Part shown: in pieces, positions 3,713-25,180 of the stretch
Numbering within the stretch: position 1 is the first letter of the stretch
Layout: each line of letters opens with the position of its first letter
Assembly (NCBI GenBank): GCA_945860295.1
Contig: CAMAQH010000002.1
Location: 228,394-292,393, forward strand
Direction: 5' to 3'
DNA: 64,000 nt
DNA from: Prosthecobacter debontii
GTDB taxonomy: Bacteria > Verrucomicrobiota > Verrucomicrobiia > Verrucomicrobiales > Verrucomicrobiaceae
Notes under the pieces: model-generated
The model's database searches: none
Told to the model about the DNA's origin: nothing
What the model saw: the letters and a program-made list of their open reading frames with translations, nothing else
Made by a program: the position numbers and the translations under genes

Positions 3713-5164
3713 ATGAACACGCCTGCCACCACCCGTCGTCGCTTTTTGCAAACCTCCCTCGCTGGAGCCGTCTCGCTTCCTGCTTGGGCTGCGCCACTCG
3801 GTGCGAACAGTGATATTCGCGTGGCGGTGATCGGTTTTCGTGGTCGTGGCAGTGGTCATATCAAGGAGCTGATGAAAGTGCCCGGCGTACGGCTGGTGGC
3901 GCTTTGTGATGTGGATTCCGCCGTCATCGACAAGAAAGTGGCAGAGCTCGATAAGCTGGGTGTGAAGGTGAAGACCTATCGCGACTTCCGCGAGTGCTGT
4001 GCGGACAAGGACATCGACGCCGTGACCATCGCCACGCCGAATCACAGCCATGTGCTCATCGCCCTGACCGCCTTGCAGCTTGGCAAGCATGTCTATGTCG
4101 AGAAGCCGGTGAGCCACAATCTAACGGAAAGCACCAAACTCATGGCCGCAGCCACCAAGGCTGCTGCGAAAGGCATCATCGTGCAGCATGGCATGCAGCG
4201 CCGGTCGGACATCGGCTGGGCAGCCGCCATGCAGTGGGTCAAAGAAGGTCATATCGGCAAGACCAAGCTTTCCCACGCACTCGTTCACGGGCTGCGCATG
4301 AGCATTGATAAAGTCGATGGTCCACAAACGCCGCCCGCCACCGTGGATTACAAGCTGTGGTCCGCGCCACGTCCCGAGCTGCCGATCATGCGCAAGCAAT
4401 TCCACTACGATTGGCATTGGCAGTGGCCGTATGGCGGCGGTGACATCGGCAACCAAGGCCCGCATCAATACGACGTGGCGCGATGGGCGCTCGGTGATCC
4501 TGATGTTCTGCCTCAGCGCGTGATGAGTTTTGGCCATCGCTGGGGTTATGTGGATGACGGCAACAGCGCGAACTGCCAGATCGCCTTCCATCCGTATGAG
4601 CCTGTGCCGTTGATCATGGACATGTTTGGCCTGCCCATGCGCAATCTTGATCCCAAATCTGGCGAGCCTCCTTACAAGGGCATCCGCACGGGAAACATCA
4701 TCCACTGCGAAGGTGGTTATGTGGCTGAATCAAAGGCCTATGATCACGAGGGCAAAGCGATCATGAAATTCGAAAACTTCCTCACTGGTCCCGACCACAT
4801 GAAGAACTTCATCGACTCCGTGCGTGCCGGAAAATACACCAAGGACGTGCTGCACATTCGCCACGGTCACAATGCCGCGTGCTTGTCACACATGGCCAAC
4901 GTCTCCCACCGCCTCGGTAAGGCGATGAAGACCGGTGAAATCAAAGAGCGTCTGCAAGGCGACAAATTCGGCCAGGAACTCTTCACCGAATTCCTCAAGA
5001 ACCTCGCCAACAACAACATCGACACGAACGCTCAGCAGATCATCGCCGGCCCTTGGCTCGACTTTGATCCCACCAGCCACCGATTCACGGGCGAGTTCGC
5101 TGCGGAGGCGAATCAACTTTGCCAAGAGGATTATGCTGCCGAATTTGAGCTACCTGAAGTCTGA
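3713..5164 (+). CDS. Tat-exported Gfo/Idh/MocA family oxidoreductase
   Basis: 483 residues counted from ATG 3713. This start is chosen because it puts a twin-arginine signal (TTRRRFLQTSLAGAVSLPAWA) at the N-terminus; upstream in-frame codons overlap the divergent dehydratase gene. The Rossmann domain begins at RVAVIGFRGRGSGHIKEL. VEKPVSHN is the conserved family motif with the catalytic Lys-Pro pair. A long C-terminal alpha/beta domain follows, with HYDWHWQWPYGGGDIGNQGPH. Such proteins oxidise or rearrange sugars or inositols using NAD(P). Tat export lets the protein fold with its cofactor before reaching the periplasm. It precedes a creatininase-family hydrolase and an MFS transporter and may serve the same catabolic function. 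A second family member lies at 50520. Confidence 0.9.
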   Translation: MNTPATTRRRFLQTSLAGAVSLPAWAAPLGANSDIRVAVIGFRGRGSGHIKELMKVPGVRLVALCDVDSAVIDKKVAELDKLGVKVKTYRDFRECCADKDIDAVTIATPNHSHVLIALTALQLGKHVYVEKPVSHNLTESTKLMAAATKAAAKGIIVQHGMQRRSDIGWAAAMQWVKEGHIGKTKLSHALVHGLRMSIDKVDGPQTPPATVDYKLWSAPRPELPIMRKQFHYDWHWQWPYGGGDIGNQGPHQYDVARWALGDPDVLPQRVMSFGHRWGYVDDGNSANCQIAFHPYEPVPLIMDMFGLPMRNLDPKSGEPPYKGIRTGNIIHCEGGYVAESKAYDHEGKAIMKFENFLTGPDHMKNFIDSVRAGKYTKDVLHIRHGHNAACLSHMANVSHRLGKAMKTGEIKERLQGDKFGQELFTEFLKNLANNNIDTNAQQIIAGPWLDFDPTSHRFTGEFAAEANQLCQEDYAAEFELPEV

Positions 5165-5296
5165 GCTGCATAACTTCTTCATGAAGCCTGAGTAGCATGG
5201 GATTTCTAACCTGTGCTCTTTGGATTTAAACAAACCTGCGCAAATCAATCACCCAAACCCGTTTTCAATCACCGCCTAGAAAGGCCATGATACAAC

Positions 5297-6055
5297 ATGC
5301 TACTTGCTGACCTCACCTGGCCCGACATCGCCGCACTCAATAAAGACACGCCGGTCGTGTTTCCCATCGCTGCGCTGGAGCAGCATGGGCGGCACATGCC
5401 GGTCTTCACCGACTCGATGCTCATGGGCGAGATCGCCCGCCGCGCAGAGATCGAGTTGAAAGACGAGGTGCTTTTTGCCCCGCTGCAATGGCTTGGAAAC
5501 TCGCATCATCACATGGAGTTCCCCGGCACGATGTCCGCAGAGCCGCGAGTCTATCTGGATCTGCTTTGTGGGATGCTGGAGAACTTCATCGCGCATGGAT
5601 TCAAGCGTCTGATCATTTTGAACGGGCACGGTGGCAATGACATCCCCGGCAAGCAGGCCGTGTTTGAGATGCGGCAGAAGCATCGCACGCGAAGTGATCT
5701 GCTTCTGCTCTTCGTCACTTACTGGAATCTCACGCCTGATCCCGCGAGCGCTCATCCTGATTTGAAACAGCAGGTCATGGGTCATGCCTGCGAGTGGGAA
5801 ACCTCCATGGTCCTGCGGATCGCTCCGCATTTGGTGAAGGGACACACGACCGTTGGCGACGTGCCGTTCGGCAATCCATTCGATCCTGCCTCACGCGGCT
5901 GGATCATGACCGACCGCAGCGTGCCCGGCCACGTCGGTGATCCCACCACCGCGAGCGCAGAGAAAGGCGAGGCGTTGTTTCAAACCTTCACCACTGGCAC
6001 CGTCGCGATGCTGCGCCGGATGATTGCGTGGAACGGAACAAGCTGGGAAGGCTAA
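5297..6055 (+). CDS. Creatininase family hydrolase
   Basis: The 252-residue length is typical for creatinine amidohydrolase/creatininase-fold proteins. The metal-binding blocks are visible: FPIAALEQHGRHMPVFTDS near residues 22-40 (Glu, His and Asp ligands), then LIILNGHGGND at about 112-122, and HACEWETSMVL near 162. Family members hydrolyse cyclic or linear amides with a dinuclear metal centre, including creatinine and biosynthetic formamides. Here the substrate is unknown. It sits between a Gfo/Idh/MocA oxidoreductase and a transporter, so a small-molecule catabolic role is likely. The next gene starts 7 bp after its stop. Confidence 0.87.
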   Translation: MLLADLTWPDIAALNKDTPVVFPIAALEQHGRHMPVFTDSMLMGEIARRAEIELKDEVLFAPLQWLGNSHHHMEFPGTMSAEPRVYLDLLCGMLENFIAHGFKRLIILNGHGGNDIPGKQAVFEMRQKHRTRSDLLLLFVTYWNLTPDPASAHPDLKQQVMGHACEWETSMVLRIAPHLVKGHTTVGDVPFGNPFDPASRGWIMTDRSVPGHVGDPTTASAEKGEALFQTFTTGTVAMLRRMIAWNGTSWEG

Positions 6056-6062
6056 ACAAGCC

Positions 6063-6506
6063 ATGATCAAAAGATGGCTTCTCATCCTGAGTCTGGTGGC
6101 CAACCTAGCTCTTGCATCGTTGGTGGTGACGTTTGGACTTCCATGGCTGTCTGAGCGCATCGGCGGTCGAAAGTATGACCCAACTCAGGCCGAAGATCTG
6201 AAATCACTACGCAAATTGATTTATCAGTGCGAACCACTCCTTCAGGCTTTGGAGAAACATCGCCAAATTCATTCCAGCTATCCCAAAGATCTGAAGGGCG
6301 TCTCTTTCGCTTATCCTCACTACTACCAAGAAGCTGTCGCAGTCGGCATGACAAACAATCCGATCTATTACAGCGCCGAGCATGGCTCAGGATACCGTCT
6401 CTACCTCAAACTCAATTGGGATGCTTCTTTGTCCTATGACTCCGCAGACCGGAAGTGGATCTATGATCCAGGAGATGGATCTGAAGGTGCCGATATTGAA
6501 CCCTGA
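6063..6506 (+). CDS. Small single-pass membrane/secreted protein, unknown function
   Basis: ATG 6063 gives 147 residues with a strong N-terminal hydrophobic segment (WLLILSLVANLALASLVV, residues 5-22). A soluble domain rich in Tyr and Asp follows (PHYYQEAVAVG, KWIYDPGDGSEGAD). The single N-terminal helix and short globular tail recall pseudopilin-like or lipid-anchored proteins, but there is no prepilin peptidase site, so I do not assign a family. It lies 7 bp after the creatininase-family gene and 16 bp before the MFS gene, so co-transcription is likely. Confidence 0.7.
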   Translation: MIKRWLLILSLVANLALASLVVTFGLPWLSERIGGRKYDPTQAEDLKSLRKLIYQCEPLLQALEKHRQIHSSYPKDLKGVSFAYPHYYQEAVAVGMTNNPIYYSAEHGSGYRLYLKLNWDASLSYDSADRKWIYDPGDGSEGADIEP

Positions 6507-6522
6507 CTTCTAACCCGAACTT

Positions 6523-7740
6523 ATGACACGCTCCTCATCCTGGAAATGGTGGATCACCGGCTTGTTGCTGCTGGCGACGACGATCAATTACATGGACCGT
6601 CAGACGCTGTCGAATGCAGCAGACGCGGTGAAGCTAGAGTTCGGCCTGAAGGACACGCAATACGGGCACCTCGGTACGGCCTTCGGGCTGGCCTTTGCTG
6701 CTGGCTCTCTGGTGTTTGGCTTTCTCAGTGAGCGGTGGAGTCTGCGCTGGCTGTATCCGCTGGTGTTGGGTGGCTGGTCGCTGGCGGGGCTTTTTTCATC
6801 ATGGGCGACGGATTATCATGAATTCATGGCAGCACGTGTGATGCTGGGCTTCTTCGAAGCTGGACATTGGCCATGCGCGCTGAAGACGACCTTTCGGCTG
6901 CTGCGCCCAGACGAGCGCATGATGGGCAACAGCGTGCTGCAAAGCGGTGCATCCATCGGGGCCATCATCACGCCGCATGTCGTTTTGTATTTATCGCAAA
7001 ACCATCCCGACGGCTGGCGCTATGCCTTTCAAGTCGTCGCTTGGTCAGGGGTGGTGTGGATAGCACTCTGGCTTTTATCCTATCGTCAGTCGCCTGTGGC
7101 AGTAGCGACTTCCGAGCCGCAATACGCAGACTCATTGCTGCCAATGATCCGCAGTCGGAGATTTTGGGCAGTGGCGATTTTGCTCATCGGCATTCAGATC
7201 CCATGGCACATGATCCTGCAGTGGCTGAAGCTGTTCCTGATCTCGCGTGGCTATGATCAATCGCAAGCAGCGACCTTTATCTCCGCCTACTACATCGCCA
7301 CCGACCTGGGCTGCATCGCCGCAGGTGTCATATCTATGAAAATGGCGGGCGTGGGGGTGCATCAGGTGAAGCGGCGCATCTTCACCGTGGCGGCCTGTTT
7401 TGTTTCCTTCACGATCTTCATCCCTCTGCTGGGGAAAGGCTGGCCTCTGCTCGCCGTGCTGCTGATTGTCGGCGCGGCGTCGCTGGCACTTTTCCCGTGC
7501 TACTACAGCTTCGTGCAGGAGCTGTCGGACACTCATGTGGCACGCCTGACGGGTCTGTTCAGCATGTGGGTCTGGGTCATCACCTCCCCCATGCACTCTC
7601 TGTTTGGTATCATCGCTGATGCTACTGGCACTTATGACTGGGGCCTTGCGCTCGCCGGTCTCGCGCCGTGGCTCGGTGTGGCGGCGATGAAGTGGCTTTG
7701 GGTGAAGCGAACGGAAGAATCCGCCTCTCCCGCCGCGTAA
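6523..7740 (+). CDS. MFS transporter, anion:cation symporter-like
   Basis: The 405-residue protein has about 12 predicted membrane spans. INYMDRQTLS near residues 19-28 is the first-helix signature of ACS-family carriers (hexuronate, glucarate and similar organic anions). FGFLSERWSLRWLYP provides the cytoplasmic loop 2-3 equivalent. Central hydrophilic residues 190-215 separate the two six-helix halves. Substrates in this family are sugar acids or other organic anions moved with protons or sodium. The gene lies among catabolic genes (Gfo/Idh/MocA oxidoreductase, creatininase-family hydrolase) and just upstream of DUF1501, consistent with uptake of a sugar-derived acid. Confidence 0.85.
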   Translation: MTRSSSWKWWITGLLLLATTINYMDRQTLSNAADAVKLEFGLKDTQYGHLGTAFGLAFAAGSLVFGFLSERWSLRWLYPLVLGGWSLAGLFSSWATDYHEFMAARVMLGFFEAGHWPCALKTTFRLLRPDERMMGNSVLQSGASIGAIITPHVVLYLSQNHPDGWRYAFQVVAWSGVVWIALWLLSYRQSPVAVATSEPQYADSLLPMIRSRRFWAVAILLIGIQIPWHMILQWLKLFLISRGYDQSQAATFISAYYIATDLGCIAAGVISMKMAGVGVHQVKRRIFTVAACFVSFTIFIPLLGKGWPLLAVLLIVGAASLALFPCYYSFVQELSDTHVARLTGLFSMWVWVITSPMHSLFGIIADATGTYDWGLALAGLAPWLGVAAMKWLWVKRTEESASPAA

Positions 7741-7750
7741 TGGTGGGGCG

Positions 7751-9154
7751 ATGCTTACCTTCTCCGACCACAGCCAAGGTTCCTCACGCCTTCAGCGGCG
7801 TGACTTCCTGCGTATTGGCGGGTTGGGGCTCGGTGGCCTCGGGCTGAGCGAGATGATGGCGCTGAAGGCGCTCGGGGCATCGCAAAAGCGACTGCTCAAA
7901 GACAAGTCGGTCATCTTCCTCTTCATGCACGGCGGGCCGTCGCAGTTCGAGACCTTCGATCCGAAGATGGATGCGCCCTCGGAGATTCGCAGCGTCACGG
8001 GCGAGATCAAGACGGCGATCCCAGGCGTGACGTTTGGCGGCACGATGGAACGGCTTGCGAAGCTGGCGGACAAGTTCAGCATCGTGCGCAGCTTCGTGAC
8101 GGGTGATGCGGTTCACGACATCAAGACCATTGTCGGCAAAGACACACTCCAGGCGAATCTCGGATCGCTCTACTCACGCATCGCCGGGCCATTGCGCAAA
8201 AGCAGCGCGATGCCGACAAACGTGGCGCTGTTTCCACAGGCGATTTCATCGGCAGCAGGTCCAGTGATCAAGAAGTTCGGCGACTTCACCTCCAGCGGTG
8301 AGCTTGGTGCGACTTACCAGCCCTTCGTGCCCGGCACAGGTAGCGGCGCACAGGCGGACATGACGCTGAGCTTGCCACAGGGTCGTCTCGATGACCGCCG
8401 CGCGTTGCTCACCTCACTGGATCAATGGAAGCGCCAGATGGACAGCAGTGAGATCGTCAGTGGCATGTCCGAATTTCAATCGCTAGCCTTCGACGTGCTG
8501 CAGCGCGGCGTGTCGGATGCCTTTGATCTCTCCAAGGAAGACCCGCGCCTCATCGCCCGCTATGACACCGCGTCGCTTCTGCCGAAAGACCGCATCAGCA
8601 CGCAGTGGAATAACCGTGAGCACTATGCCGACAACGCCGCCACGCTCGGCAAGCTTTTGCTCATGGCGCGTCGTCTCTGCGAGCGCGGCTGTGGCTTTGT
8701 CACCGTGACGACCAGCTTTGTCTGGGACATGCATGCGGATAATAACAACGCACCATGCCTCACCGGCATGGACTACGTCGGGCGTCCATTCGACCATGCC
8801 GTCTCCGCATTGATCGAGGACATCGAAGCACGCGGGCTGAGTGATAAAATCATGCTCGTCTGCTGTGGCGAGATGGGCCGCTCGCCAAAGCTCAATGTCA
8901 AAGGAGGGCGCGATCACTGGGGTGGCCTCGCCCCGCTCATGATCTACGGCGGCGGATTGAAGATGGGCCAGGTCATCGGCCAATCTGCACGCCACGGTGG
9001 TGAACCTGCCTCTGAGCCGATTACGATTCCCGATTTGATCGCCACGATCATGCACACGCTTGTCGATGTCGGTGAAGCGCGAATCACCGATGGCCTGCCG
9101 CCAAGTTTGCTGAACGTGCTAACGCGTGGCGAGCCGATCCGTGGTCTAGTTTGA
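7751..9154 (+). CDS. DUF1501 family Tat-exported protein
   Basis: The 467-residue protein carries a twin-arginine signal, LQRRDFLRIGGLGLGGLGLS, close to the N-terminus. Its body has the DUF1501 blocks: FLFMHGGPSQFETFDPK, GGTMERLAKLADKFSIVRSF, GCGFVTVTTSFVWDMHADN and CCGEMGRSPKLN. DUF1501 proteins are related to the alkaline phosphatase/sulfatase superfamily, and many paralogues occur in Planctomycetes and Verrucomicrobia, often paired with DUF1553/DUF1549 proteins. Their reaction is undefined. No DUF1553 partner is adjacent; the next gene is a metal-binding protein 12 bp downstream. Confidence 0.92.
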   Translation: MLTFSDHSQGSSRLQRRDFLRIGGLGLGGLGLSEMMALKALGASQKRLLKDKSVIFLFMHGGPSQFETFDPKMDAPSEIRSVTGEIKTAIPGVTFGGTMERLAKLADKFSIVRSFVTGDAVHDIKTIVGKDTLQANLGSLYSRIAGPLRKSSAMPTNVALFPQAISSAAGPVIKKFGDFTSSGELGATYQPFVPGTGSGAQADMTLSLPQGRLDDRRALLTSLDQWKRQMDSSEIVSGMSEFQSLAFDVLQRGVSDAFDLSKEDPRLIARYDTASLLPKDRISTQWNNREHYADNAATLGKLLLMARRLCERGCGFVTVTTSFVWDMHADNNNAPCLTGMDYVGRPFDHAVSALIEDIEARGLSDKIMLVCCGEMGRSPKLNVKGGRDHWGGLAPLMIYGGGLKMGQVIGQSARHGGEPASEPITIPDLIATIMHTLVDVGEARITDGLPPSLLNVLTRGEPIRGLV

Positions 9155-9166
9155 TTCTCCTACTTC

Positions 9167-9736
9167 ATGAAAAGCACTCGTCTTGTTCTCACCGCTTTCA
9201 GTTTCGCTGTTTCCAGTCTCTGCGCCGCTGACAAGCCGCGGCCGATCACGCAGACTTTTTATGTTTCAGGCGTCGAGTGTGGCAGTTGTGTTTACATGGT
9301 TCAGCAGGCAGTCAGCGCAGTGAAGGGCGTCTCGGAAGTGACAGTGGTGCAGGTGGTCGACAATTACGCGAATGTGACCTTTGACCCGAAGGTCGTGAGC
9401 ATCCATCAAATCGCCCAAGCGGTGACGGATGCTGCGCCTCTGCATGGCATCCCTTATCAGGCGACACTGAAACTTTTTATCCCTGATTACGCAAAAGAAA
9501 ATAACTCCAGGAAAGTTGACGCCTTGTTTTCCAAATGGAAATCCTGGGTGAAGATCAAGACGGCAGACCGAGCCAGCGGGGAGTTCATTTTGCGATTCCA
9601 GCCACTGACAATCGATGCAAGGATGACAGACCCTCAAGGCCTGCGCCATGAGGATTTATTCCAAGCACTCCAAAGCCCATCGCCTCAAGGCTTGGGACTG
9701 AAAATCCGAATCGCCGAAGAGAAAGTGGACGGCTAA
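9167..9736 (+). CDS. Secreted heavy-metal-associated (HMA) domain protein
   Basis: The 189-residue protein begins with a signal peptide (LVLTAFSFAVSSLCAAD). Residues about 28-95 form an HMA ferredoxin-like domain with the metal-binding GVECGSCVYMVQQAV (G-x2-C-x2-C). The C-terminal 90 residues match no domain I recognise. HMA domains bind Cu(I), Zn or Hg and usually act in metal transfer or detoxification. The gene follows DUF1501 by 12 bp and its stop abuts the convergent metH stop. Confidence 0.82.
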   Translation: MKSTRLVLTAFSFAVSSLCAADKPRPITQTFYVSGVECGSCVYMVQQAVSAVKGVSEVTVVQVVDNYANVTFDPKVVSIHQIAQAVTDAAPLHGIPYQATLKLFIPDYAKENNSRKVDALFSKWKSWVKIKTADRASGEFILRFQPLTIDARMTDPQGLRHEDLFQALQSPSPQGLGLKIRIAEEKVDG

Positions 9737-12700
9737 TCAATAGCTCAGCCAGTGCGACAACCACTTCTCCGTTGCTGCCAAGGTCATGCCTTTACGGGCG
9801 GCATAGTCTTCAATCTGGTCTTTGCCGAGGTCCGTCGAGATGCCGAAGTAGCGGGCTTGCGGGTGATTGAAGTAGAAACCACTCACGCTGGCTCCGGGAT
9901 GCATGGCGTAACTTTCGGTTAGTTCGCAGCCGGTGTTTTCGGTGGCATTGAGAATGGCGAACAAGGTCTTTTTCTCCGTGTGATCCGGCTGGGCGGGATA
10001 ACCGGGCGCTGGACGGATACCGCGATACTTTTCGCGAATGAGTTCCTCGTTGGTGAGGTCGCCGGGCTTCTCGATGCCGCACTGGAACCGTGATTGCTGA
10101 TGCAACCACTCGGCGAAGGCTTCGGCGAAGCGATCCGCGAGTGCCTTCACGATGATGCTGGAATACGGATCGTTCGCGTCGTCGTAGGTCTCCGCATATT
10201 CATCTCCGCCGTGGATGGTGACGGCGAATCCACCGATGTAATCGGTGCGTCCACTGTCCTTCGGCGCGATGAAGTCGGCGAGGGCATAGTTCGGCGTGTC
10301 CTTCTTGATCTGCTGCTGCCGCAGTGAGTGCAAAGCGGTACCATTGGCAAGCACGATGTCGTCGCCGACACTGTTAGCTTCAAAGAAACCGACAACGCCT
10401 TTTGGAGTAAAGCGGTTCTCTTTGATGATGATATCGAGCAATGCATTCGCATCGCGGTAGAGCTTGGCAGCCTCTGCTTCGGCTCCGGCTTTCTTATCGG
10501 CTTCATCCCAGGCGCTGGAGAAGGTTTGCTCCTTAGAGTTCCAGCGGCCACGCAGCTCCCAGGTGTGGAAGAAGGGCGACCAGTCAATGAAGCGGCGGAG
10601 TTCTTCGAGGGAAGGCAAGATCGTCTCAACGCCCAACTTCTTCGGCTCGGCGATTTCGACCGTGGCCCAGTCACAGGTGAACTTGTTCGCCCGAGAGGCG
10701 TCGATACTGAGGATGTCGCGGGCCTTCTTCTGGCCATATTTGGCGCGCATTTCGTCGTGCCTAATTTCATTTTGAGCCACGAAGGCTGCTTTGTGTTCCT
10801 CACTCATCAAGGAGGTCGTCACGGGCACGGAGCGTGAGGCATCAAGCACATGAACCACGGGGCCGGAGTAATGCGGCGCGATCTTGATCGCGGTATGCGC
10901 GGCGCTCGTGGTCGCACCGCCGATGAGCAGCGGCACCGTAAAGCCTAAGCGCTCCATTTCGGACGCGACGTGCATCATTTCATCGAGTGATGGCGTGATC
11001 AGGCCGGAGAGTCCGATGACATCTGCACCAATCTCCTTGGCCTTCTCCAAAATCTTGTCGCACGAGACCATGACACCGAGGTCGGTGACTTCGAAGCCAT
11101 TACACGCGAGCACCACGCCAACGATGTTCTTGCCGATGTCATGCACGTCGCCTTTGACGGTAGCGATGAGGAATTTGCCGCCGCCTTGCTGCGCAGCCTC
11201 GGCGGGGATCAAATCGGCTGCGGTCAGGCCTTCTTGGCTTCCGCCTGATACGGCGCTGGCTCCTCGCGGAGAATCGACGACTGGCGTGATGCGTTGTCCA
11301 GAGATCGAAGCGTCGCTTCGTTGATCTCGTTGAACAGAGTCGCCGTCTCCGAGTCGAGTTTGGGCGAGAAATTGCGCCAAGATCCTTTCAAGGCTGGTTC
11401 GGTCTGTGCAGTGTTCATGGAGTGTTTCTTTGAGTTGAGTTTCGCCGCTGGAGAGGAGTTCATCAATGGATTTGTACAGTCGCTGATGAAGCCAATCGAG
11501 ATCCCGGATCGCAGCGTGCCCATGCAACGAGTTGTCGAAGACGATGACTTGGAAGCCGGATTGGTCGGCAAACTCCTCAATCAAGGCCAAAGTCGTTCGT
11601 GGTGCTTGGTAGTGACCTCTCACCGCACGCGGCAGCGGAACGATGCGGCCCGTGCCTTCAAGCGCCCTCATCACCATATTCCGAATGGCGAGCAGCCAAG
11701 GAGAATATATGAATCGGACCTCCACCCTGCAGCCTGCGGCGAACGCTGCGGCAAAGTGCTCACGACTGCGAGCGTGATTTTGCAAAGTGCCATCCATCAC
11801 CAAAATGAGACGTGGACCATCAGGCATCTGCTGAGTCGCCGTGGTCTTGCCGCTGCCTTGACCGCCAGCATTGAAGACGATCACATCACCTGGCTTGGAC
11901 ATTGAAACGACCTTTGCAAACATCCAATCAACGAACGCACCAGCAGGCTCTAAGGTCGCGACACTCCACGCTTGACGACTCTCACGCGTCGCCGCGTAGT
12001 CAGGGCTAAGTTCTTGGACGGTATTGCGGTCCAGCACGATGCCGAAGCGGCGCTTGTGCTCGACGAGAGCACCTTCCAAGTCAGAAGCGAGTTGGGCGGC
12101 GAATTTCACTTCCATGCGCCGCTCTTCGACAGACAAGCCCGAGTAAGGCTTGTAGCTGAAGCCCTCGACTAAAGTCACTTCGCTATTGTTGGTCAGCGCT
12201 TCGACAGTCACTACAGCGGCGCGGACCAAAAGTTCGCGCTCGAGCTTTTTCTTCGCCTTCTCCGCCTCCATCACCGGTGTCAGCACGGCAACGCTTTGCT
12301 TCATCACTCGGGCGGACTTCACCACTTGGGGGAGGAACATTTTGCCTTCGCCGAAGAGGTCGCCGACGACCTTCATGCCGTCCATGAGCGGACCTTCGAT
12401 GACCTTCAGTGGTACTCTGTATTTAACGAGCGCCTCTTCGGTATCGGGGATGATGAAATCGGTGATGCCCTTTAATAAAGCGTGCTCCAGGCGCTTCTCG
12501 ACGCTGGCTTCACGCCAGGAAAGATCAGCTTCGGCACGTTTGGCACCAGCGACACCTTTGAACTGCTCGGCGAAATCGACGAGCGCTTCGGTCGCACCCG
12601 AATTGCGATTCAAAAGCACATCCTCGACCTTGGTGAGCATGTCCTTCGGGATGTCCTCATAAACTTCGAGCATCCCGGCATTGACGATGCCCATGTCCAT

Positions 12701-14566
12701 GCCGGCTTTGATGGCGTGAAAAAGAAAGGCGCTGTGCATGGCCTCGCGCACCTTGTTGTTACCACGGAAGCTGAAGCTGATGTTGCTGACGCCGCCGCTG
12801 ACTTTGGCACCGGGGAGGTTCTGTTTGATCCAGCGTGTCGCGTTGATGAAGTCGAGCGCGTAGTTGTTATGCTCCTCCATGCCGGTGGCGACGGTCAGGA
12901 TGTTCGGGTCAAAGATGATGTCCTGCGGATTGAACTCGACCTCATCGACGAGGATGCGGTAGGCGCGCTCGCAGATGCGGATCTTCTCTTCGTAAGTCGC
13001 TGCTTGGCCTTTCTCATCGAAGGCCATGACGACCGCTGCCGCTCCGTAACGCTTGATGGTGCGTGCGCGTTCGCGGAAGGCTTCTTCGCCTTCCTTCATC
13101 GAGATCGAGTTCGCGATGCCTTTGCCTTGCAGCATTTTTAATCCGGCCTCGACGACCTCCCACTTCGACGAATCGACCATGATGGGCACTTTCGTCACCT
13201 CGGGCTCGGTTTGCAGCAAAGCGAGGAATTGAGTCATCATCTCGACGCCATCAATGAGGCCTTCGTCCATGCACACATCGATGACGTTGGCTCCATTTTC
13301 GACCTGCTGACGTGCGACGCTGACCGCCTCCTCTAGCTTGCCTTCCTTGATGAGCTTCGCAAATTTCGGCGAGCCAGCGACGTTCGTGCGCTCACCGATC
13401 ATGAGGTAGTTCGCGAGCTTCGTGTGATTGTAGGCCATCGTGCCGGACAAACGCATGATCGGCTCGGGACTCGGCACATGACGCGGCTCGATGCCCTTCA
13501 CGGCCTTGGCAATGGCTTCGATGTGCGCTGGCGTGTTGCCGCAGCAGCCGCCCATAATGTTCACGAAACCTGATTTGGCGAAATCCGTCGCGAACTCAGC
13601 CATGTGATGCGGCAGCAAATCAAAGCCGGTCGGCGCGAGCGCGTTAGGCAAACCCGCATTCGGATAGGCCGACACAAAGCATCCAGCCTTCGCCGCTAGC
13701 TCTTCAATGTATGGCCGCATCTCGTCAGGACCCGCCGAGCAGTTCATGCCGATGCTCAGTGGTTTGACGTGCATCATCGCATTGAGGTAAGCCTCCACAT
13801 CCTGCGCAGACACCAGCGTGCGGCCCTTCACCATGGCGGCGGAGATCTGCACGGGCAGCTCGATCTGATCCTTCGCAAACACTTCTTGGATGGCAAACAG
13901 CGCCGCCTTGGCGTTCAACGAATCGAAGATCGTCTCGACAAGCAGAGTGTCGCTCCCACCCGCGATCAAAGCGCGGATTTGATGCATGTAAGCCTGCTTC
14001 ACCTGATCAAACGTGATCGGGCGAAACGCCGGATCATCCGCATCCACCTGGAAGTTCAGCGACACCGTCATCGGCCCGATGGCACCGGCAACGTAGCGCT
14101 TCACGCCCGTGTCATTCGCCACGCGGTCCGCCCACTTCCGGCACTGCTGCGCGGACATGAAATTGATGTCCCATGCGACTTCGTTCACATAGGTATTCTC
14201 GATCACGCCTTGATAAAACTCCGGGTCTTTCCGCCCACCGTGATCACGCGGGTCTTCGATGAAGAGATCGCTCTGCGCTACCGACGTCGCACCGAAGGTA
14301 TTCGTCTCGATGATGTCCGCGCCGGCTTCGAGGAAGCGCCGATGAATGTCCTCAATAATCTCCGGCTTCGTGATGCTCAGAATGTCGCCGTTGTTGAGCA
14401 GATCCTTCTCATTCTTGGCAAAGCGAGTGCCGCGAGCGATCTCTTCACTGAGCAGACCTTTGGCTTTGTATTCGCGGATCGTCGTGCCCATCGCTCCGTC
14501 GATAACGAGGATGCGCTGGCGCATGGCGGCTTCGAGTTCTGTGCGGCAATTCGGGCGTGAAGGCAT
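9737..14566 (-). CDS. metH: Cobalamin-dependent methionine synthase with an internal zeta-kinase-like guest segment
   Basis: The protein has 1,609 residues from ATG 14566, against about 1,230 in the family. It transfers the methyl group of methyltetrahydrofolate to homocysteine through cobalamin. All host modules are present: the homocysteine domain with zinc cysteines in MGGCCGNTP (341-342), the folate domain ([14 protein letters not shown]), the B12 cap, the B12-binding domain with DVHDIG (His1142, equivalent to E. coli His759) and the activation domain with [15 protein letters not shown]. The extra length is one block at residues about 775-1127, between the cap (ending [10 protein letters not shown]) and the B12 domain (starting [14 protein letters not shown]). 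That block contains a P-loop, GGQGSGKTT (901-909). Because both flanks are conserved and in frame, the enzyme is probably functional. ATG 14599 is an alternative start. The reverse gene overlaps no neighbour. Confidence 0.93.
11182..12246 (-). other. In-frame guest segment in metH: zeta-toxin-like P-loop kinase domain
   Basis: About 355 codons with no counterpart in standard MetH. The N-terminal part ([53 protein letters not shown]) and the core ([60 protein letters not shown]) match the layout of zeta-toxin/UDP-GlcNAc-kinase-like proteins: Walker A lysine, an Asp two strands later and an Arg-rich lid. The final 70 codons in the host frame are low in hydrophobics and rich in Ser, Gly, Gln and Arg, whereas another frame there encodes a more protein-like 64-residue ORF. 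Segment ends are estimated from where MetH conservation stops and resumes. No intein splicing motifs and no terminal repeats were seen. Confidence 0.75.
11224..11418 (-). CDS. Small alternative-frame ORF inside the metH guest segment (possible partner of the zeta-like kinase)
   Basis: ATG 11418 to TGA 11224 encodes 64 residues beginning [19 protein letters not shown]. The middle, [19 protein letters not shown], reads as an amphipathic helix, and [17 protein letters not shown] ends it. The host MetH frame over the same bases is Ser/Gly/Gln-rich and looks non-globular, so this frame is probably the one originally under selection. A small acidic/helical partner next to a zeta-like kinase suggests an antitoxin or accessory protein, but this is inference. 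No strong Shine-Dalgarno site is visible. Confidence 0.45.
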
Positions 14567-14638
14567 GGGCGAAACTAGCGCCGTAGCTGGGCGGGTCAAC
14601 TGTCACATCGACATATCATGATTTGAGGATATGTCGTT

Positions 14639-15598
14639 TTACAGCCGCTTCTTGCTCGCAAGCAGCGCCGCCTTAGCGACCTGGATTTTTCCGTCGGCCT
14701 GCTCGATGAGGGGGTCAAACATGGGGATCTCTTTGCCGTTCTGACCCTGCTCATGTTTGCGGAAGCCAAAGAGGTAAGTCTCGTTTTGTGGGCGCCAGCG
14801 GTTGAAGAAGAGTTCGTCTTTGTGCAAGACCTCGCGTGTGATCGGCTCTAACTCGGCACTGGCGACGGCGGGTGCGATGAGGCCGAGTCCTTCGATGAGT
14901 TTGGCACTGAGTTTCTCATAGCCGACACGAGTGTAGTGGACGCCGTTTTCAGTCAGTGGCTGGGCGGGGATTCCAGCCTTGGGCACGCCACCCATGAGCT
15001 CAAAGAGGTCGATGAAATAAGTATTCTGGCTGAGGGCAAATTTGCGCAGCGCATCACGGAAACTGGAGAGGCTTTTATTGGCATAAGCGAGATCGGGCAT
15101 GGGCGCAGGTAGCGTCTCCAGCGGCGGCGGACTGACGATGATGAGCCGTGCTCCAGGTGCTTCTTTGCGCATAAGTTCGAGCAGATTGCGGTAGCCGGTG
15201 AGGAAATCAGGGAGGCCGCCGAGACCTACAAAAGCCATCTCAGATCCGTAGCAAAGCATGACAACCGTGGGCTTCAGTAGCTCCAGGTGTGTGGTCAGAC
15301 GCTGCAAGCCTTCTTCCGGCGGACCGAAGTAGGAGCGGGCATGGCCGAAGACGGTATCACCACTCCAGGCAAGGTTACGGACGCTGACTTTGAGATCGCC
15401 GAGCGCGAGGGCGAGGCGCGGCTCAAAGGTGCCGTAGCGCTGCTCGCGCTCGATGACGGTGTTACCGATTAGCACGAGGCGGTCGCTGTCTTTGAATTCA
15501 AAGCTGTGCTTTTCCGGCTTGGCGACAGGGACCGTGACTTCCTGGGCTGTGACGGTGCCGATGACGGCGAGTGTGAGGAGTGCGGCTTTCCAGATCAT
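14639..15598 (-). CDS. Secreted SGNH-hydrolase-like protein lacking the canonical serine
   Basis: ATG 15598 gives 319 residues with a cleavable signal (AALLTLAVIGTVTAQ). This start is preferred to 15655, which places extra charged residues before the signal. The SGNH fold is visible: RLVLIGNTVIEREQRYG as block I, NLAWSGDTVFGH as block II, VVMLCYGSEMAF near block III and TENGVHYTRVGYEKL as block V. Block I has Asn-Thr where Asp-Ser is expected, so the usual nucleophile is missing. It may bind a glycan or ester rather than hydrolyse it, or use another residue. It follows the giant protease gene by 53 bp in the same direction. Confidence 0.75.
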   Translation of the reverse strand: MIWKAALLTLAVIGTVTAQEVTVPVAKPEKHSFEFKDSDRLVLIGNTVIEREQRYGTFEPRLALALGDLKVSVRNLAWSGDTVFGHARSYFGPPEEGLQRLTTHLELLKPTVVMLCYGSEMAFVGLGGLPDFLTGYRNLLELMRKEAPGARLIIVSPPPLETLPAPMPDLAYANKSLSSFRDALRKFALSQNTYFIDLFELMGGVPKAGIPAQPLTENGVHYTRVGYEKLSAKLIEGLGLIAPAVASAELEPITREVLHKDELFFNRWRPQNETYLFGFRKHEQGQNGKEIPMFDPLIEQADGKIQVAKAALLASKKRL

Positions 15599-15651
15599 GG
15601 CGTTTATTGGAGATGAAAGGGCGCGTTGTGTCCAGAGCAATACTGCGGGCT

Positions 15652-18600
15652 TCACCGCGTGACTTTCACCCGCATGAAACGCTGAACGCCGGGGCCTGCG
15701 GGAACGTTGTCGCGCACTTGCAGGGTGGTGCTGTTATTCACCTCGATCACGAGACCGGCGCTGTTCCAGCTCAGCGGATTGGCGAGGTCACTGCTGGCTT
15801 CAACGGTGAAACTGATATCCGTGGCAGCGGGGTTTTTGGGGATGGCGATTCGCAAATATTTGTCCGCACTGATGGGTGCCAAGGTGGTGACTTGCGGATT
15901 GGCGCTGCTGATGATGCCATTGGTGCCGACGGCGTATTCGAAGAGGTTGGCGAGGCCGTCCTTGTCCATGTCGGCATCGGCTTCGGCGAGGGTGTTGTTT
16001 TCATCGCCGACGCCGTTTTGATCCAACCAACGGGCAAAGGGCGTGAGGTAGGCGCTAAAGGAGACATCGCGGAAGCTGGTGATGCTGCTGTCATCGGCGA
16101 GGAGGCGGAGGCTGTGGGAACCGCTGGCGGTGAAGGTGGCGGTGGTGGCGATGAGGGCAGGATTGCCTAAGGTGATGGTGCCGGGGCCGCTGATCTGGCT
16201 CCACTGAGTGGTGAGGCTGACTGGGACTGGAAAGCTATCGTCAGTGACGGTGCCATCGAGTGAGATGGGTGATATGTCGCCCAAAGCAGCGAGGGCGATG
16301 TTGGGGGCTTTGTTGAGGGGGACAATAGTTAGGCTGCTGAACTGCGCGGTGTTCAGCACGCCTGCGGTGCCGCCCGCGTTATCGACCGCGAAGCCGATGA
16401 GCACGTTTGGTGTCATGATGATAGTGCGCGGGCTGCCGAGCTGGGTCCAGGTGCCGGGTGCGCCGCCGACATCGGCGGCGTGGAAGGAGGTAATGCTATT
16501 CCCCTGACGGATGAGTCGCATCCAACGGACGGTGCCAGTGAAGCTGGGCACGCCTCCGGTGCCGCCGTTAGCGACGGTGCGCCAGATATTGCCGCTGAAG
16601 GAGCTTGTGGGGATGCGCCCGACATGGGCATAACCAGCCGTGACGTCCATGCTTTCGCGCATCATCATCCCGGATTTGGCATTGAGCGCGCCACTGTTGG
16701 CGGCGGCGTGTTTGGCGGTGACCATCACATCACCCGTATATTGCCAGCCGTAGAAGGCGCCGTTGCCATCCATGCTATCTGCGGCAGCGATGGTGTAGCT
16801 GCCGCTGCTAGTAGCAAAGGTGGCCTGGGTGCTCGGGGCGGTGCCGAAGTTTTCGCTGATAAAAGCAGCGCCGCTAGGTGCTGGGGTGAGCGTGACATTG
16901 TCAAAGGTGGCGGTGCAGAGCTGGCTGGCGGTGCTGCTGTTTCCCGTGGCAGTAAGGCCCATCTGCGTGGTGTCATTTAGCATGGCAATGGCGGTGGGTG
17001 CGCCGATGGCTAACCAGGCGCTGCCATCGCTGGAATACGAGGCGATGATCTCGCTCGTGGCGCTGGTGCGTTCGAGTTTGACCCACACGGGCAAAGCAAT
17101 GCCACTCTGAGAGACGACGGTGTCATTTGAGCTGACGGCAGTGCGTGTGCGAAACTGCAAAGCGCCGCCGCTGTAGCCGAGCACGGCGCGGTTGACGCTT
17201 CGATTCAGGCTATCGCGAATGGTGACGCCAGCGAGCGGGGCAGCAGTGGGTCCGGTGAGGGTGGTGAGGCGTGCGATGATGCTACCATTGCCCGTGATCT
17301 GGCGCGTCATGGTATGCGCGGCATCGGTAGTGACGGCGCTGTAGCCTGCGCCCATGCCAGAGAGGAGGTAACTGCCGCCGAGCTTAGCACTTTGTCCGCG
17401 CTGCTGGGTGGTGGGGCTCATGTCTTGGGCGATCCAGTCGGTGGCGGCGATGGCGCTACCGACGATGACGCTAACCTGGTCACTGGCGATGAACTGGGTG
17501 TCAGAGGCGGTGAATTTCAGCACATAGACGCCATCCGCGCTGAAGGTGACGCCGCTGCTGAGCACGGCGGGCGTGGTGAAGGCGGCAGTGCCGGGACCAC
17601 TGACCTGGCTCCAGGTGGTGGTAAGTGCCGCGGGTGAACCATCATCAGTGGCGCTGGCAGTAACGATGATACCCTGGCCACTGGCGACGAGTGCTCCATT
17701 CGCGTCGGGGCTCTCAATAATGATGACGGGTGGGGCGTCGTTGTCCTGAATGATGGCTTCATCATAGCTGGCACTGCCGATGGTGTAGGTGGTGCCACCG
17801 AGGGTGAGGAGCACGGTTTCATCACCCTCACTGAGGAGGTCATTCACGGGCGTGACGGTGACGGTGGCGCTGCTTTGATTCGCGGGGATGACGACGCTGG
17901 TGCTGAGTGTGCTGTAGTCCGTGGTATTTAAAGCAGTTCCGCTGATGGTGATGGTGACGGTAAGTAGGGCGGTGATGGGAGCGGTGCGGGTGATGGTGAA
18001 GATAGCGGTGTTCCCGGCCGTCTCGGAGGCGTTGGCATCTGTGGCGGCGATGGTGACGGTGCTGCGGTCATCATCGGCGATGGTGACGGTGGCAGCAGTG
18101 GGAGTGCCGAGCGTGTAGAGGCTGGCGTTGGCATTGATGGTGAGGATGACGGTCTCGCTGCCTTCATTGGTAGCATCATTCACCGGAGTGATGGTGACGG
18201 TGGTAGAGGCGGCACCTGCCGGAATGGTGAAGGTGTAGGGCGTGGTTCCGCTGATGCTGGTGTAGTCCGTGCCGTTCGTGGCAGTGCCTGTGCGGGCGAG
18301 CGTGACGGCGAGTGTGGCTGTGGTATCGCCTGTGCGGGCGATGGTAAAGGAACCTGGATCAAGACCAGCCTCCGCAGCACTGGCATCGGTGGCGGTGATA
18401 CTGACGACAGGAAGGTCATCATCCGTGATGGTGAAGGTGTGCGCGCTTTGGCTGCTGATCACGGTGCCGACGGGATTGCTCAGCGTGATGATGATGGTCT
18501 CTGCGGCATCTAGGACGGCGTCGTCAAGAACAGTCAGTGGGATGGCTTTCACCGTTTCTCCCGGTGCAAAGGTGAGGGTGCCGCTGCTCAAGGTGTAATC

Positions 18601-21600
18601 GGTGCCACTGACTGCCGTGCCGCCGGTGACGGCGTAGTCCACGCTGGCATTGCTGTTGGATGGGGCGCTGAGCGAGACATCGAGCATCACGGTGCCAGCA
18701 GTCGCTTCTGCGCCGCTGCTATTAGAAAGGGCAAAGCCGACGAGTGGCAGGAGCGGCGCGCTGTCGTCATCATCGATGACATAGGTGAAGGTGGTGTTCG
18801 TGCCGAGGATGCTGGCGGTGGGATTCAGCAGCCGCAGGGAGACGGATTCATTCGGCTCGGCGATGCCGTCGTTGTTCACGGCGAGGGCGATGTCCTTCGT
18901 CTGCTCGCCATCGCTGAAGGTGAGCGTGCCGCCTGCCAAAGCGAAGTCCACGCCGGCGCCATAGGCATTCGTGACGCTGGTGCTGCGGGAGACGTACTCG
19001 TGCTGTGCATTCGCCACGAGGCCGCTGTAGGCGGAGAGGGAGCGGTAGTTATGTAACTCCCGCGCCATCACACCAGCCTGCGCGGTGGCAGCGCCGCCGG
19101 TTTGAGAAAGGACACGTGCGATGAGGTCAAAGTCACCCGTGATGGTGGTGGCCAAAAAATGGCACTCGTCCTCCGTGCTGCCGATCTGCGCGCCTGAACC
19201 TGTGACGGTATAGGTGCCAGAGCTGAGTGAGTCACTGCCCTGTGCATTGACATAACCAATGGTGCGACCTGAGAGTCCGGTGGCGGGGGCACCATTGAAG
19301 GTCACATTGTCAAAGGCTGCCGTGGTGAGCGTGCCATCGGATTTCGCGGATACGGCGAGGCCAGCCTGCACGTCGAGGCCCATGGGGATGCTGCGGTCGA
19401 TGCTAGTCTGCACCCAGGCGCTGCCATCAGGGGAATACCAGGCGCTGAAGGCATCACCCACTCGGCGCAGCCGCACCCAGTAGGGGCGGATTGGGGCGGT
19501 GGAGTTCGTGGCACTGCCGCTGGTGGCGGCGCGGGAGATAAGGCGTGCGGCGGCACCTTTCTCCGCGAGGGTGGTCATGTGGCGTGAGCCAGTGGCGGTG
19601 GACTCGCGTAGGGTCACGCCAGCACGTGAGGTGGTATTCCCACCGCTGATGCTGACGACACGCGCGGTGACAGTGCAGTTCACCGAGTTGCTGATGGCGT
19701 GGGAGACGTAGCAGGACAAGTCCGAGGTGCCGGTGGTGGAGAGGCCGGCACCGCCGGCATTGAGCGTGTAAACACCGCCTGTCTCGCTGCTGGTGCTGAC
19801 TGGATTTGTGGTGCCGATGCTGCCGAAGACTGCCGCACCCGGTGTGCCGCTATCGAGTCCGGTGATGCTGAAGTTATCCAGTGTGGCTGCACAACTGACG
19901 GCGCTGGTGGATGACATGGCGATGAGACCGGCGGTGTAGCTGGTGCTGCTCATGCTAATGGTCGCAGTAGTGCCGACCTGCCGCCAGTCGATGCCATCGA
20001 CAGAGATGAAGCTGCTCAGCGAATTGCCCGCTCGCACTACACGCGTCCAGTAGGGCAGCACCGGCACGGCATTCGCCGTCGTCGTGGAGCTACGGGAGCC
20101 GCTATCGACAACGTAGTCTACTGTCGTGATGCCGACGGAGGGCGAGTCGAGAGTGACAGGTACATTCACCGCCGTCACGCTCTCCAATCCCGAGCCACCC
20201 GTGCTGGTGAAGGCCACGGTTTGCGCGCTGATTTCATTATCGTCGATGAAAATCGTGGCGTCAGCCGTCTTCGAGTAGCTACCTGCTTCGGCATGAAAGA
20301 CAATGGTCTCGATGCCCTCCAAAATGGCGTCGTTGGTGCCGGTGGTATTCAGGGTGAGATCAGCACCGGAAGCTCCGGCAGGGATGGTGAGCGTGCCGAG
20401 ACGGGTGCCGTTGCCGAAGGTCAGCGTGGCTCCGGTGGTCACATTGTAGTCCGCGCCGGCTGTGGCAGTGCCATTGAGGGAGAAATTCACCTCCAATGCA
20501 GCAGCGGTGGAGCCGGTGCGCGAGACGTAGAATTTGAAAGGCGAGGTCGTGGCACCCTCGGTGATGCGATTGGCCGCGCCTCCGCCGATCTGCGAATCCG
20601 CCCAGACTGTGGGCTGGTCATTGTCTCGCAGCCAGATGCTGGCAGTGCTTGTGGGTGCGTAGATGCTGATCGCTACGCTTGGCGTGAGTGTACAAATGAT
20701 GCTCTCGATGTCCTCTAACGCGACGTCATTCACTGGCACGACGGTGAGGTTTAGCGTGTTCGCCGTGGTGGTGGAGCTGTTCATCACGATGACACCTGTG
20801 CCCGTGCCCGCATCGAAGGAACTAACGGGCGTGGTGACGGGCAGGGTGACGGTGTAGTCCGTGGTGACGGTGGCAGTGCCGCTAAGGCTGAACGGCACAC
20901 TCACCGTGCCGGCAATGCTGCCTTTTGAAGAGAAGGTGAAGACGCCCGAGGAACCACCTTCAACAGCAGCGGTGGCGGCGGCGATCTCGACATAAGGTGC
21001 GTTCGAGGTGGCGCTGTCATTGATGGTGACGGTGCCAGACGTAGTGGCACCGAGTCGATAATCCGTGGGGCCCGCGCCGAGTAGTAGCAGCACTTGCTCA
21101 GGCGTCTCGCCAAAGCCATCCCAACGCGGCACGATGGTGATGGCAGAAGAGCTGGCGCCTACTGGAATCTGGAGCACGCCGGGCAGTGCCTCGAAGTCCA
21201 CGCCATGCAGCGCTGGGACGCCGGTGCTGGGATTGCCTGCCACGGAATAATAAACGGTCAGTGGCGAGGTGGTATCGCCCGAGCGGGTGACAATGAAGGT
21301 GCCGGTATTCGCTACATTACCGCCGACGCTGAGATCGACCTCCTGCGCGGTGGCATCCGTGACGGTCACAGTGACGACGTTCGTGTCATCATCCAGCAGG
21401 CTCGCGGTGGCGGTGGTCGCGGTGGGATCGATCACATAGGCGGCGTTGCTGGTGATCGTGAGGGTGGTTGTCTCCAAAGGCTCGACGAGGGTATCATTCA
21501 GCGGAGAGACCGGCACCGTGGCGCTGGCGCTGCCGATGGGGATGGTCACGTTGCCAGTTAGGGCCGTGTAGTCTGTGCCAGACGTGGCGGTGCCAGTGGC

Positions 21601-24522: not shown

Positions 24523-25180
24523 ACGGAGTTGGGCGGTTGGCGTTACCACTCTGAAAATCTAATAATCAGGCTATAAGAGTAAAGCTCGATATTAACTAAA
24601 TCCTTGTATTTGAATTGGAAAATCAACCAAGGGCGCTACGACTCAGGTCACGCGATAGTTTTCAGCGCACAAGGTTAAGGAGCTTAACTGGCATCACTTC
24701 GAGCCGATTTAGCTGCCAGCCAGATCGCCCAGCCCTCACGGATCCAATCCCAATGCCGCCCAAAGACAAGTTTATGACTGTCTTTTATAGAACAGGTCTA
24801 AGGCACCATTGCCGAATTGCACCCGATGAAGGAGACGAAGGCCACTACATGCAGGAAATGGTCGAGTTTGAACCATTTTTTGCGGATGTGGCTTGATGTC
24901 GTATTTGCCTTTATTGTTGATGATTGGTTTAAATATTCGGAATTATTTTTTTGAAGCCGCTCAGTCATTATCAGAAGCAAGGGGCACGACAAATCTTTGA
25001 TGATATCAAAAATTGAACGCCACTTAAAGCTACACAATGTTCTCAAAACCTCGCAGATACAGTGTGGCCAATCTTGTTAGAAGGCCGCACTCTTGTGTCT
25101 CCCAGGGCTTGTGCTCCTGAACTGACCCAAGTGGACGTCCAGGCCTCAATCGCAAGCGACGCAATGACGCCACCCATTCT
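24523..25180. other. AT-rich intergenic region without a confident gene
   Basis: The 658-bp gap between the giant protease gene and tatC is AT-rich compared with its flanks. Short ORFs occur on both strands. The best is forward, 24753-24896, with HYMQEMVEFEPFFADVA at its end, but it lacks a convincing start and family, and could be a gene remnant. It must contain the promoter of the reverse protease gene; I could not fix a unique -35/-10 pair. Confidence 0.5.

Follow-up and report, generated by a model that had tools for sequence, protein, structure and literature searches.

Within a 64,000-nucleotide stretch of Prosthecobacter debontii DNA (assembly GCA_945860295.1, contig CAMAQH010000002.1, positions 228,394 to 292,393; hereafter the window), the gene for cobalamin-dependent methionine synthase (MetH) carries an inserted cassette between the regions encoding its cap and B12-binding domains. 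Structure modelling indicates that the insert is a complete kinase lobe, catalytic motifs included, of the type represented by the Neisseria gonorrhoeae toxin ng_zeta1, and that it resides within the MetH polypeptide. Over the linker that follows the kinase, substitution patterns point to the +1 frame, and not the MetH frame, as the one constrained as protein, making this stretch apparently dual-coding. Among relatives, whether a MetH gene has the cassette, lacks it or carries a swapped version appears not to depend on the surrounding enzyme. We give an even chance to the reading that an essential enzyme here houses an exchangeable toxin-antitoxin cassette whose antitoxin is encoded in another frame of the same stretch.

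A kinase lobe inserted into methionine synthase

Relatives without the cassette served to define its boundaries. Genomes G032, G016 and G006 have no insert, even though the N-terminal part of their MetH is 95-97% identical to that of the window, and the distance from the cap motif to the B12 motif DVHDIGKN is 377 residues in the window protein versus 27 in the closest empty relatives, an excess of about 350 residues. An earlier note, made from the letters of this DNA alone, had described a zeta-type kinase lying in frame between the cap and B12 domains at 11182-12246, close to the limits obtained here; its figure of 383 extra residues is too high, and its protein length of 1609 holds when counted from the ATG, whereas the open frame begins with a TTG 11 codons earlier. 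The cassette comprises the following features:

11180..12256 (-): inserted cassette, residues 782-1140 (about 359 residues), from comparison with empty relatives
11366..12169 (-): kinase domain proper, residues 811-1078, ng_zeta1 type (PF06414; 6EPH by sequence; structure model)
12029..12031 (-): Asp857 of the motif DRN, candidate catalytic base, invariant in alignment A2 (37 rows)
11840..11866 (-): P-loop GGQGSGKTT, residues 912-920, with Lys918, invariant in A2 (37 rows)
11224..11418 (-): +1-frame open reading frame (ORF), ATG to TGA, 64 residues (64 codons), candidate antitoxin (conservation, codon-position changes, RNA structure)
11224..11365 (-): MetH-frame linker following Phe1078, modelled as disordered and free of constraint in the MetH frame

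The insert is not an assembly artefact, because it recurs in 40 loci, one of which belongs to a record titled Verrucomicrobium sp. BvORR034 that bears no metagenome-assembled-genome label. In the loci examined, the kinase and the MetH sequence on both sides of it share one open frame, or the frame reaches the contig end. The exception is locus L074 of genome G014, in which MetH sequence follows the kinase but the preceding frame is another protein joined at a repeat, a junction that is probably a misassembly. A repeat-like in-frame stretch (SGILPD...GILPD/V...) was noticed in the N-terminal linker of the G031 insert (L036, ~5260-5430), and the same SGILPD-type stretch occurs at the odd G014 junction, just before position 6001 of L074, where the frame switches to the other protein. 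Excision at the protein or RNA level, which the earlier note had entertained, found no support in the boundaries, inspected by eye, or in the Pfam matches of the window protein and insert, which include no Hint family: nothing in them suggests an intein or an RNA-level event.

The kinase was recognized by sequence and by predicted fold. PF06414 (Zeta_toxin) matches residues 933-1010 of MetH at E 1.9e-7, exceeding the curated cut-off, and all 13 members of our set A1 match it too when E values up to 1 are allowed, the best being 5.5e-12. In the window insert, profile positions 98-178 of 199 are aligned and no others, a partial match of the sort that a different block order would produce. A profile of A2 retrieved ng_zeta1 (6EPH) from PDB sequences at E 9.8e-8, and Pfam and PDB sequence searches of the insert returned zeta families and no MeaB-type family. 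A 565-residue structure model that spans the cap, the insert and the B12 domain and draws on 33 sequences (mean predicted local distance difference test score, pLDDT, of 78.5) places the kinase in a separate, well-predicted lobe, with pLDDT mostly above 90, that is joined to the cap by a long helix and leads back to the B12 domain through a disordered linker. The best solved match to this lobe is the ng_zeta1 toxin (Foldseek E 1.2e-10), to which VIA-align fits 261 residues at 2.3 A with a Z of 27.9, from residue 3 to residue 271 of ng_zeta1. Thus, the zeta-type assignment made earlier is borne out by Pfam, by PDB sequence and by fold.

The Walker A loop reported in the earlier note is the invariant P-loop listed above, and a DGT motif is likewise invariant across the 37 rows of A2. 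As described, ng_zeta1 has two sequence blocks swapped relative to other zeta toxins, such that Asp56 precedes the P-loop Lys115; the toxin phosphorylates UDP-sugars and lyses Escherichia coli unless its antitoxin is co-expressed (PMC5923241). The insert resembles ng_zeta1 (PDB 6EPG, 6EPH, 6EPI) in fold over the 261 residues, in having the Asp block before the P-loop, and in the spacing between these elements, with Asp857 sitting 61 residues ahead of the P-loop Lys (D47 and K108 of A2) compared with 59 in ng_zeta1; Asp857 is equated with Asp56 by order and spacing, not by residue-level superposition. Members of the PF06414 family, including epsilon/zeta and PezAT, are P-loop kinases like the insert, but the order of its blocks is that of ng_zeta1 and not of the streptococcal type. 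The gonococcal toxin differs from the insert in being a protein of its own, encoded on a plasmid and ending in an OB-fold domain. Pairwise rates in the kinase core yield a ratio w of 0.05-0.17 where computable, the exceptions being L010/L101 (0.47 in the C-terminal half) and G015/G009 (0.37 and 0.45), whose kinases are unlike each other.

The host gene is the sole MetH match in the source genome, and Pfam finds in its product five MetH domains, in order, with PF06414 between the cap and B12 domains:

9737..14599 (-): MetH, single open frame, 1620 codons when started at TTG, 1609 when started at the ATG 11 codons downstream
13499..14509 (-): homocysteine S-methyltransferase domain, residues 31-367 (PF02574, E 8.3e-74)
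12680..13396 (-): pterin-binding domain, residues 402-640 (PF00809, E 2.1e-61)
12281..12499 (-): cap domain, residues 701-773 (PF02607, E 1.8e-23)
10895..11176 (-): B12-binding domain, residues 1142-1235 (PF02310, E 2e-20), with DVHDIGKN at residues 1151-1158 by motif position
9788..10609 (-): activation domain, residues 1331-1604 (PF02965, E 5.4e-100)

Apart from its extra length between the cap and B12 domains, the window protein thus keeps all the catalytic modules, the B12 motif and the GGCCG of cobalamin-dependent MetH, the last of which we take to be the Zn site. GGCCG is present in 30 of 41 kinase-bearing rows, and the other 11 comprise five with a separate upstream homocysteine-domain gene, five that run off the contig, and G014. 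Such split genes were observed in L094, L096, L097, L102 and L107, where a homocysteine-domain gene of ~367-430 codons lies upstream of a frame containing the later MetH parts and the kinase. Full-length MetE was seen in three of 14 kinase-bearing relatives (G033, G034 and G037) and in none of the other 11, some of the assemblies, including that of the window, being incomplete; a search of the source genome for rpoB as a species marker gave no match. Because 11 of these 14 show no full-length MetE, the kinase-fused MetH should be the working enzyme in them and is probably still active. Adjoining metH, an ORF of 2965 residues (window 15652-24549, minus strand) resembles a large repeat protein.

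A second reading frame overlapping the end of the kinase

The linker between the kinase and the B12 domain, where pLDDT falls below 50 (model residues 384-424), diverges in an unusual manner. Amino-acid changes in the MetH frame are many, and synonymous divergence (dS) in that frame is 0.01-0.14 in eight of 12 pairs with a value, versus 0.15-1.25 for the MetH body of the same eight. When the linker is read in the +1 frame, it yields a helical peptide and a stop that are alike in most rows. This frame belongs to an ORF of 52-113 codons, mostly 57-70, that overlaps the kinase end as well as the linker. Its ATG was found in every one of the 41 kinase-bearing genes examined, 35-59 bases ahead of the invariant Phe. 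Each of the 41 rows holds the P-loop and DVHDIGKN in one frame, the first ATG was taken where several were in range, and alignment A5 was left out on account of misaligned short tails.

The distribution of substitutions indicates which frame is constrained. Changes at codon positions 1, 2 and 3 number 120, 87 and 326 in the kinase versus 135, 47 and 47 from the Phe to the +1 stop, as counted in nine pairs of sequences that match in length and are 72-97% identical, with some rows used more than once; in six non-overlapping pairs, the shift has a p-value of 2e-18. When eight pairs are taken together, the +1 frame has a w of 0.25 and the MetH frame (frame 0) one of 1.75. One antisense frame comes close to the +1 frame, at 0.32, but 26 of the 41 rows have it closed. 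The ATG has a median chance of 0.35 per gene in synonymous shuffles, and the RNA around it is predicted to be largely unstructured, with a mean of -2.6 kcal/mol versus -8.3 to -13.3 at sites 60-240 bases upstream. The structure is also weaker than in synonymous shuffles, and the guanine-cytosine fraction preceding the ATG is 0.486 versus 0.574 in the shuffles. Because rows are related, row-wise p-values overstate the case and group counts are safer; the dip in structure at the ATG occurs in 21 of 21 kinase groups, which were made by hand from the kinase tree. The encoded small protein is modelled as one helix, residues 23-50, with loose ends.

The small ORF and the kinase tend to occur together. 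Beyond the 41, the ORF with its ATG is present in two more distinct genes that have the kinase, those of G247 and G115, and 26 of 26 matches in L146-L171 were dropped as support because all of these ORF DNAs are identical to one of the 41. Among 17 linkers without a P-loop, 16 lack the ORF by profile (10 same-genus scars plus G505, G437, G517, G448, G462 and G494), and the catalytic DRN motif is also decayed in G505, G437 and G517. The seventeenth, in G236, has lost the kinase core and retains the small ORF and the N-terminal part of the kinase, which is still intact, so the deletion may be recent. A decayed in-frame kinase in G364 (L131), with a P-loop reading GGQESKKT, the DRN lost and no small ORF by profile, is a possible intermediate of loss. 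Across 15 sequences, divergence of the small ORF tracks that of the C-terminal half of the kinase (rank correlation 0.47, which could come from physical linkage alone) and not that of the MetH body (-0.21).

Clear matches to the small ORF in a search of the phylum (E 1e-4 or better, five genomes) are confined to MetH loci, and seven more are weak (E 0.005-0.009). By profile, the same kinase family extends to stand-alone kinases and to large phage-like proteins of the Verrucomicrobiota (L126, L128, L172, L173 and L174), which lie outside MetH, and a profile search of these loci gave no +1 ORF of the MetH-cassette kind. An in-frame homologous tail in the stand-alone kinases was considered and rejected, the C-terminal end of L172 being vaguely similar by eye and the profile giving no convincing match.

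Distribution and exchange of the cassette

All 56 relatives searched, with the source genome included, have MetH matches. Of 35 genomes of the same genus, 12 have a full linker between the cap and B12 domains (counting G014, a fragment that is probably misassembled) and another 12 have an empty one of 27 residues. In 10 more, the linker is a scar of 138-158 residues without the kinase, and in G021 it was not seen; of the 21 other relatives, two have a full linker, G050 and G037. A scan of an 84,980-species collection, using two patterns that are specific to this kinase subfamily and sampled no more distant kinases, recovered the 40 loci noted above, all titled with names that we take to place them in the Verrucomicrobiota. 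A search of the phylum with the kinase profile matched 13 of 387 genomes, five of them strongly and in MetH-size frames, one over the N-terminal part only, and seven in other proteins, mostly weakly. The corresponding search of the order matched 60 of 386 genomes, 34 of them at E <=3.6e-97, among which are the decayed kinase of G364 and one kinase in two pieces (G721); 13 further matches span just the first 30-39 profile positions and represent scars. These counts suggest a patchy distribution of the cassette in MetH across many Verrucomicrobiota. The one-off insertion pictured in the earlier note is not upheld, given that MetH homologues in related genomes carry the same segment as a conserved domain, which by that note's own reckoning ends its uniqueness, although its presence is far from constant. 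That account, which is partly supported overall, missed the overlapping +1 gene, the swapping of alleles and the rewired, ng_zeta1-type fold.

The cassette and its host enzyme do not share a common history. On a tree of the MetH body (the 66 of 79 rows with at least 900 body residues), the full, scar and empty states change at least 17 times, and near-identical MetH proteins differ in having the kinase, a kinase-less scar, or nothing. The MetH body of the window is 93-100% identical to that of the empty G032 in all body windows but one (88%), but its kinase core resembles those of L070 and G031 (73-93% over residues 850-1060) and not the core of L076, the next relative by MetH body, with which identity is 37-70%. 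A shared kinase and body history is rejected in four of four approximately unbiased tests (p 0.002 to 1e-62), the groups having been picked after the trees were seen. At the DNA level, metH of G015 and G009 is 91-98% identical up to residue 869, 44-73% over residues 870-1109, and 88-97% beyond, save one window at 79%. G010 and G024 show a similar pattern, and G028, which has no insert, agrees with G015 at 92-99% identity in most windows. The comparison is between kinase and MetH-body trees only, and transfer of whole metH genes and transfer of the cassette by itself may both have a share in it. No relative of the cassette that might represent a donor was found in a scan of viral contigs or among plasmids, and the phages gave one weak match, at 28% identity.

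The genes flanking metH in the window (5297-15648) match those of L070 in order, at 75-87% DNA identity, as seen in comparisons with L070 and L032. The metH body matches G032 at 90-92%, and the flanks of metH in G032 (~3 kb on each side) have no other match to window 5000-20000. From these alignments, metH of the window may have been replaced in place.

Interpretations of the cassette

The toxin-antitoxin reading stems from the combination of a conserved toxin-type kinase, a constant overlapping small gene, exchange, and frequent absence. The linked second gene typical of such systems is represented by the +1 ORF, present beside the kinase in 41 of 41 genes and constrained as protein. In this reading, the kinase would phosphorylate a UDP-sugar or similar substrate and be harmful when unrestrained, and the small helical protein, separately started on the same mRNA, would bind and restrain it. 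The essential host gene would shield the cassette from deletion, because most deletions would break MetH; addiction or phage defence would maintain it, and homologous recombination would swap it by way of the cap and B12 sequences, which are conserved. That the kinase is toxic and that the small protein binds and inhibits it is what we infer here, as is each step beyond a conserved kinase plus a conserved overlapping gene. More tentatively, and as something possible but short of probable, an essential housekeeping enzyme might serve as the chassis for a hypervariable, perhaps anti-phage, toxin-antitoxin cassette, with an internal-domain toxin and a frame-nested antitoxin, kept and diversified by interspecies allele exchange.

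Several observations weigh against a toxin-antitoxin function. The cassette is missing in many close relatives and so provides no indispensable function. In the remaining four of the 12 pairs, linker dS reaches 0.28-0.68, and the length of the +1 ORF by itself is unremarkable per gene (median p 0.09 in synonymous shuffles). Shine-Dalgarno-like motifs precede the ATG in just five of 41 genes, no promoter-like site was found within 11100-12300, and the small ORFs of G010 and G037 differ in look from the rest. Searches of Pfam (seven ORFs), PHROGs (four) and PADLOC (two) gave no match, and so did not place the partner in a known antitoxin family, which would not be demanded of a new pair; a PDB search gave no convincing chain and did not return ng_epsilon1, the antitoxin of ng_zeta1. 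No similarity between ng_epsilon1 and the +1 ORF was detected, and in its bicistronic operon ng_epsilon1 has a gene to itself, whereas the candidate overlaps the toxin end. The small ORF that persists without a kinase core in G236 fits an antitoxin but also a plain recent deletion.

The main rival is a regulatory or chaperone role like that of IcmF, in which the kinase would be a built-in helper or regulator of MetH dependent on nucleoside triphosphates, acting in cap opening, B12 loading or repair, or a link of methionine synthesis to cell-wall metabolism, with the +1 protein regulating that activity and no toxin involved. IcmF is a B12 mutase fused to a G-protein chaperone and so, like the window MetH, has a P-loop NTPase beside a B12 domain. 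This precedent, the position of the kinase next to the B12 domain, the conservation of its catalytic residues and the purifying selection on its core are all in keeping with such a role. The helper of IcmF serves its own mutase, and its P-loop belongs to a family other than that of the insert kinase. A helper role accounts for the site, but not for exchange and absence: the kinase is missing in many close relatives with similar MetH, kinase and enzyme lack a common history, and the nearest relative in fold and sequence is a UDP-sugar kinase toxin. We consider this alternative unlikely.

Programmed +1 frameshifting, yielding full MetH together with a shorter MetH-kinase product bearing a +1 tail, seems rather improbable to us. 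The constrained frame does switch near the invariant Phe, and a C follows in 17 of the 22 rows in which the Phe codon is TTT, a possible +1 slip. The 41 rows have no common slippery site, however, the Phe codon being TTT in 22 and TTC in 19. In addition, an ATG with an unstructured leader, which frameshifting does not need, is present in 41 of 41 rows, and the part matching the ng_zeta1 fold stops within a few residues of the switch. Least credible is the idea that a permissive linker tolerates a piece of a mobile-element protein that is neutral or in decay, the +1 signal being a relic, since the related kinase domains in large phage-like proteins of the phylum, the scars without a P-loop and the decayed kinase of G364 are offset by strong constraint on both the frame-0 kinase and the +1 ORF and by retention of the ORF in 41 of 41 kinase-bearing genes.

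No publication joining the themes of this analysis was found, the nearest literature matches being unrelated by title and the start of the abstract. If the toxin-antitoxin reading is correct, a toxin module can travel inside a metabolic enzyme that is essential, passed on, exchanged and sheltered together with it, and its likely antidote would be hidden in a second frame that gene callers tend to miss. This would constitute a new route of persistence for selfish or defensive elements and a ready experimental system for dual-coding genes, and it would warn that housekeeping genes can hold fast-moving conflict cassettes. Even if that reading fails, an enzyme whose kinase lobe is exchanged and whose coding sequence overlaps a second, conserved gene calls for explanation.

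Related kinases were also observed in other settings. In L126, L128 and L174, zeta-like kinase domains occur within huge proteins of 1561-3678 residues, some apparently prophage-borne. A zeta-like kinase of 212 residues is encoded at 1799-2437 of L129 (minus strand), near genes that we read as an RtcB, a Ro/TROVE protein, a Thg1-like protein and a small P-loop kinase, presumably an RNA-repair-like neighbourhood.
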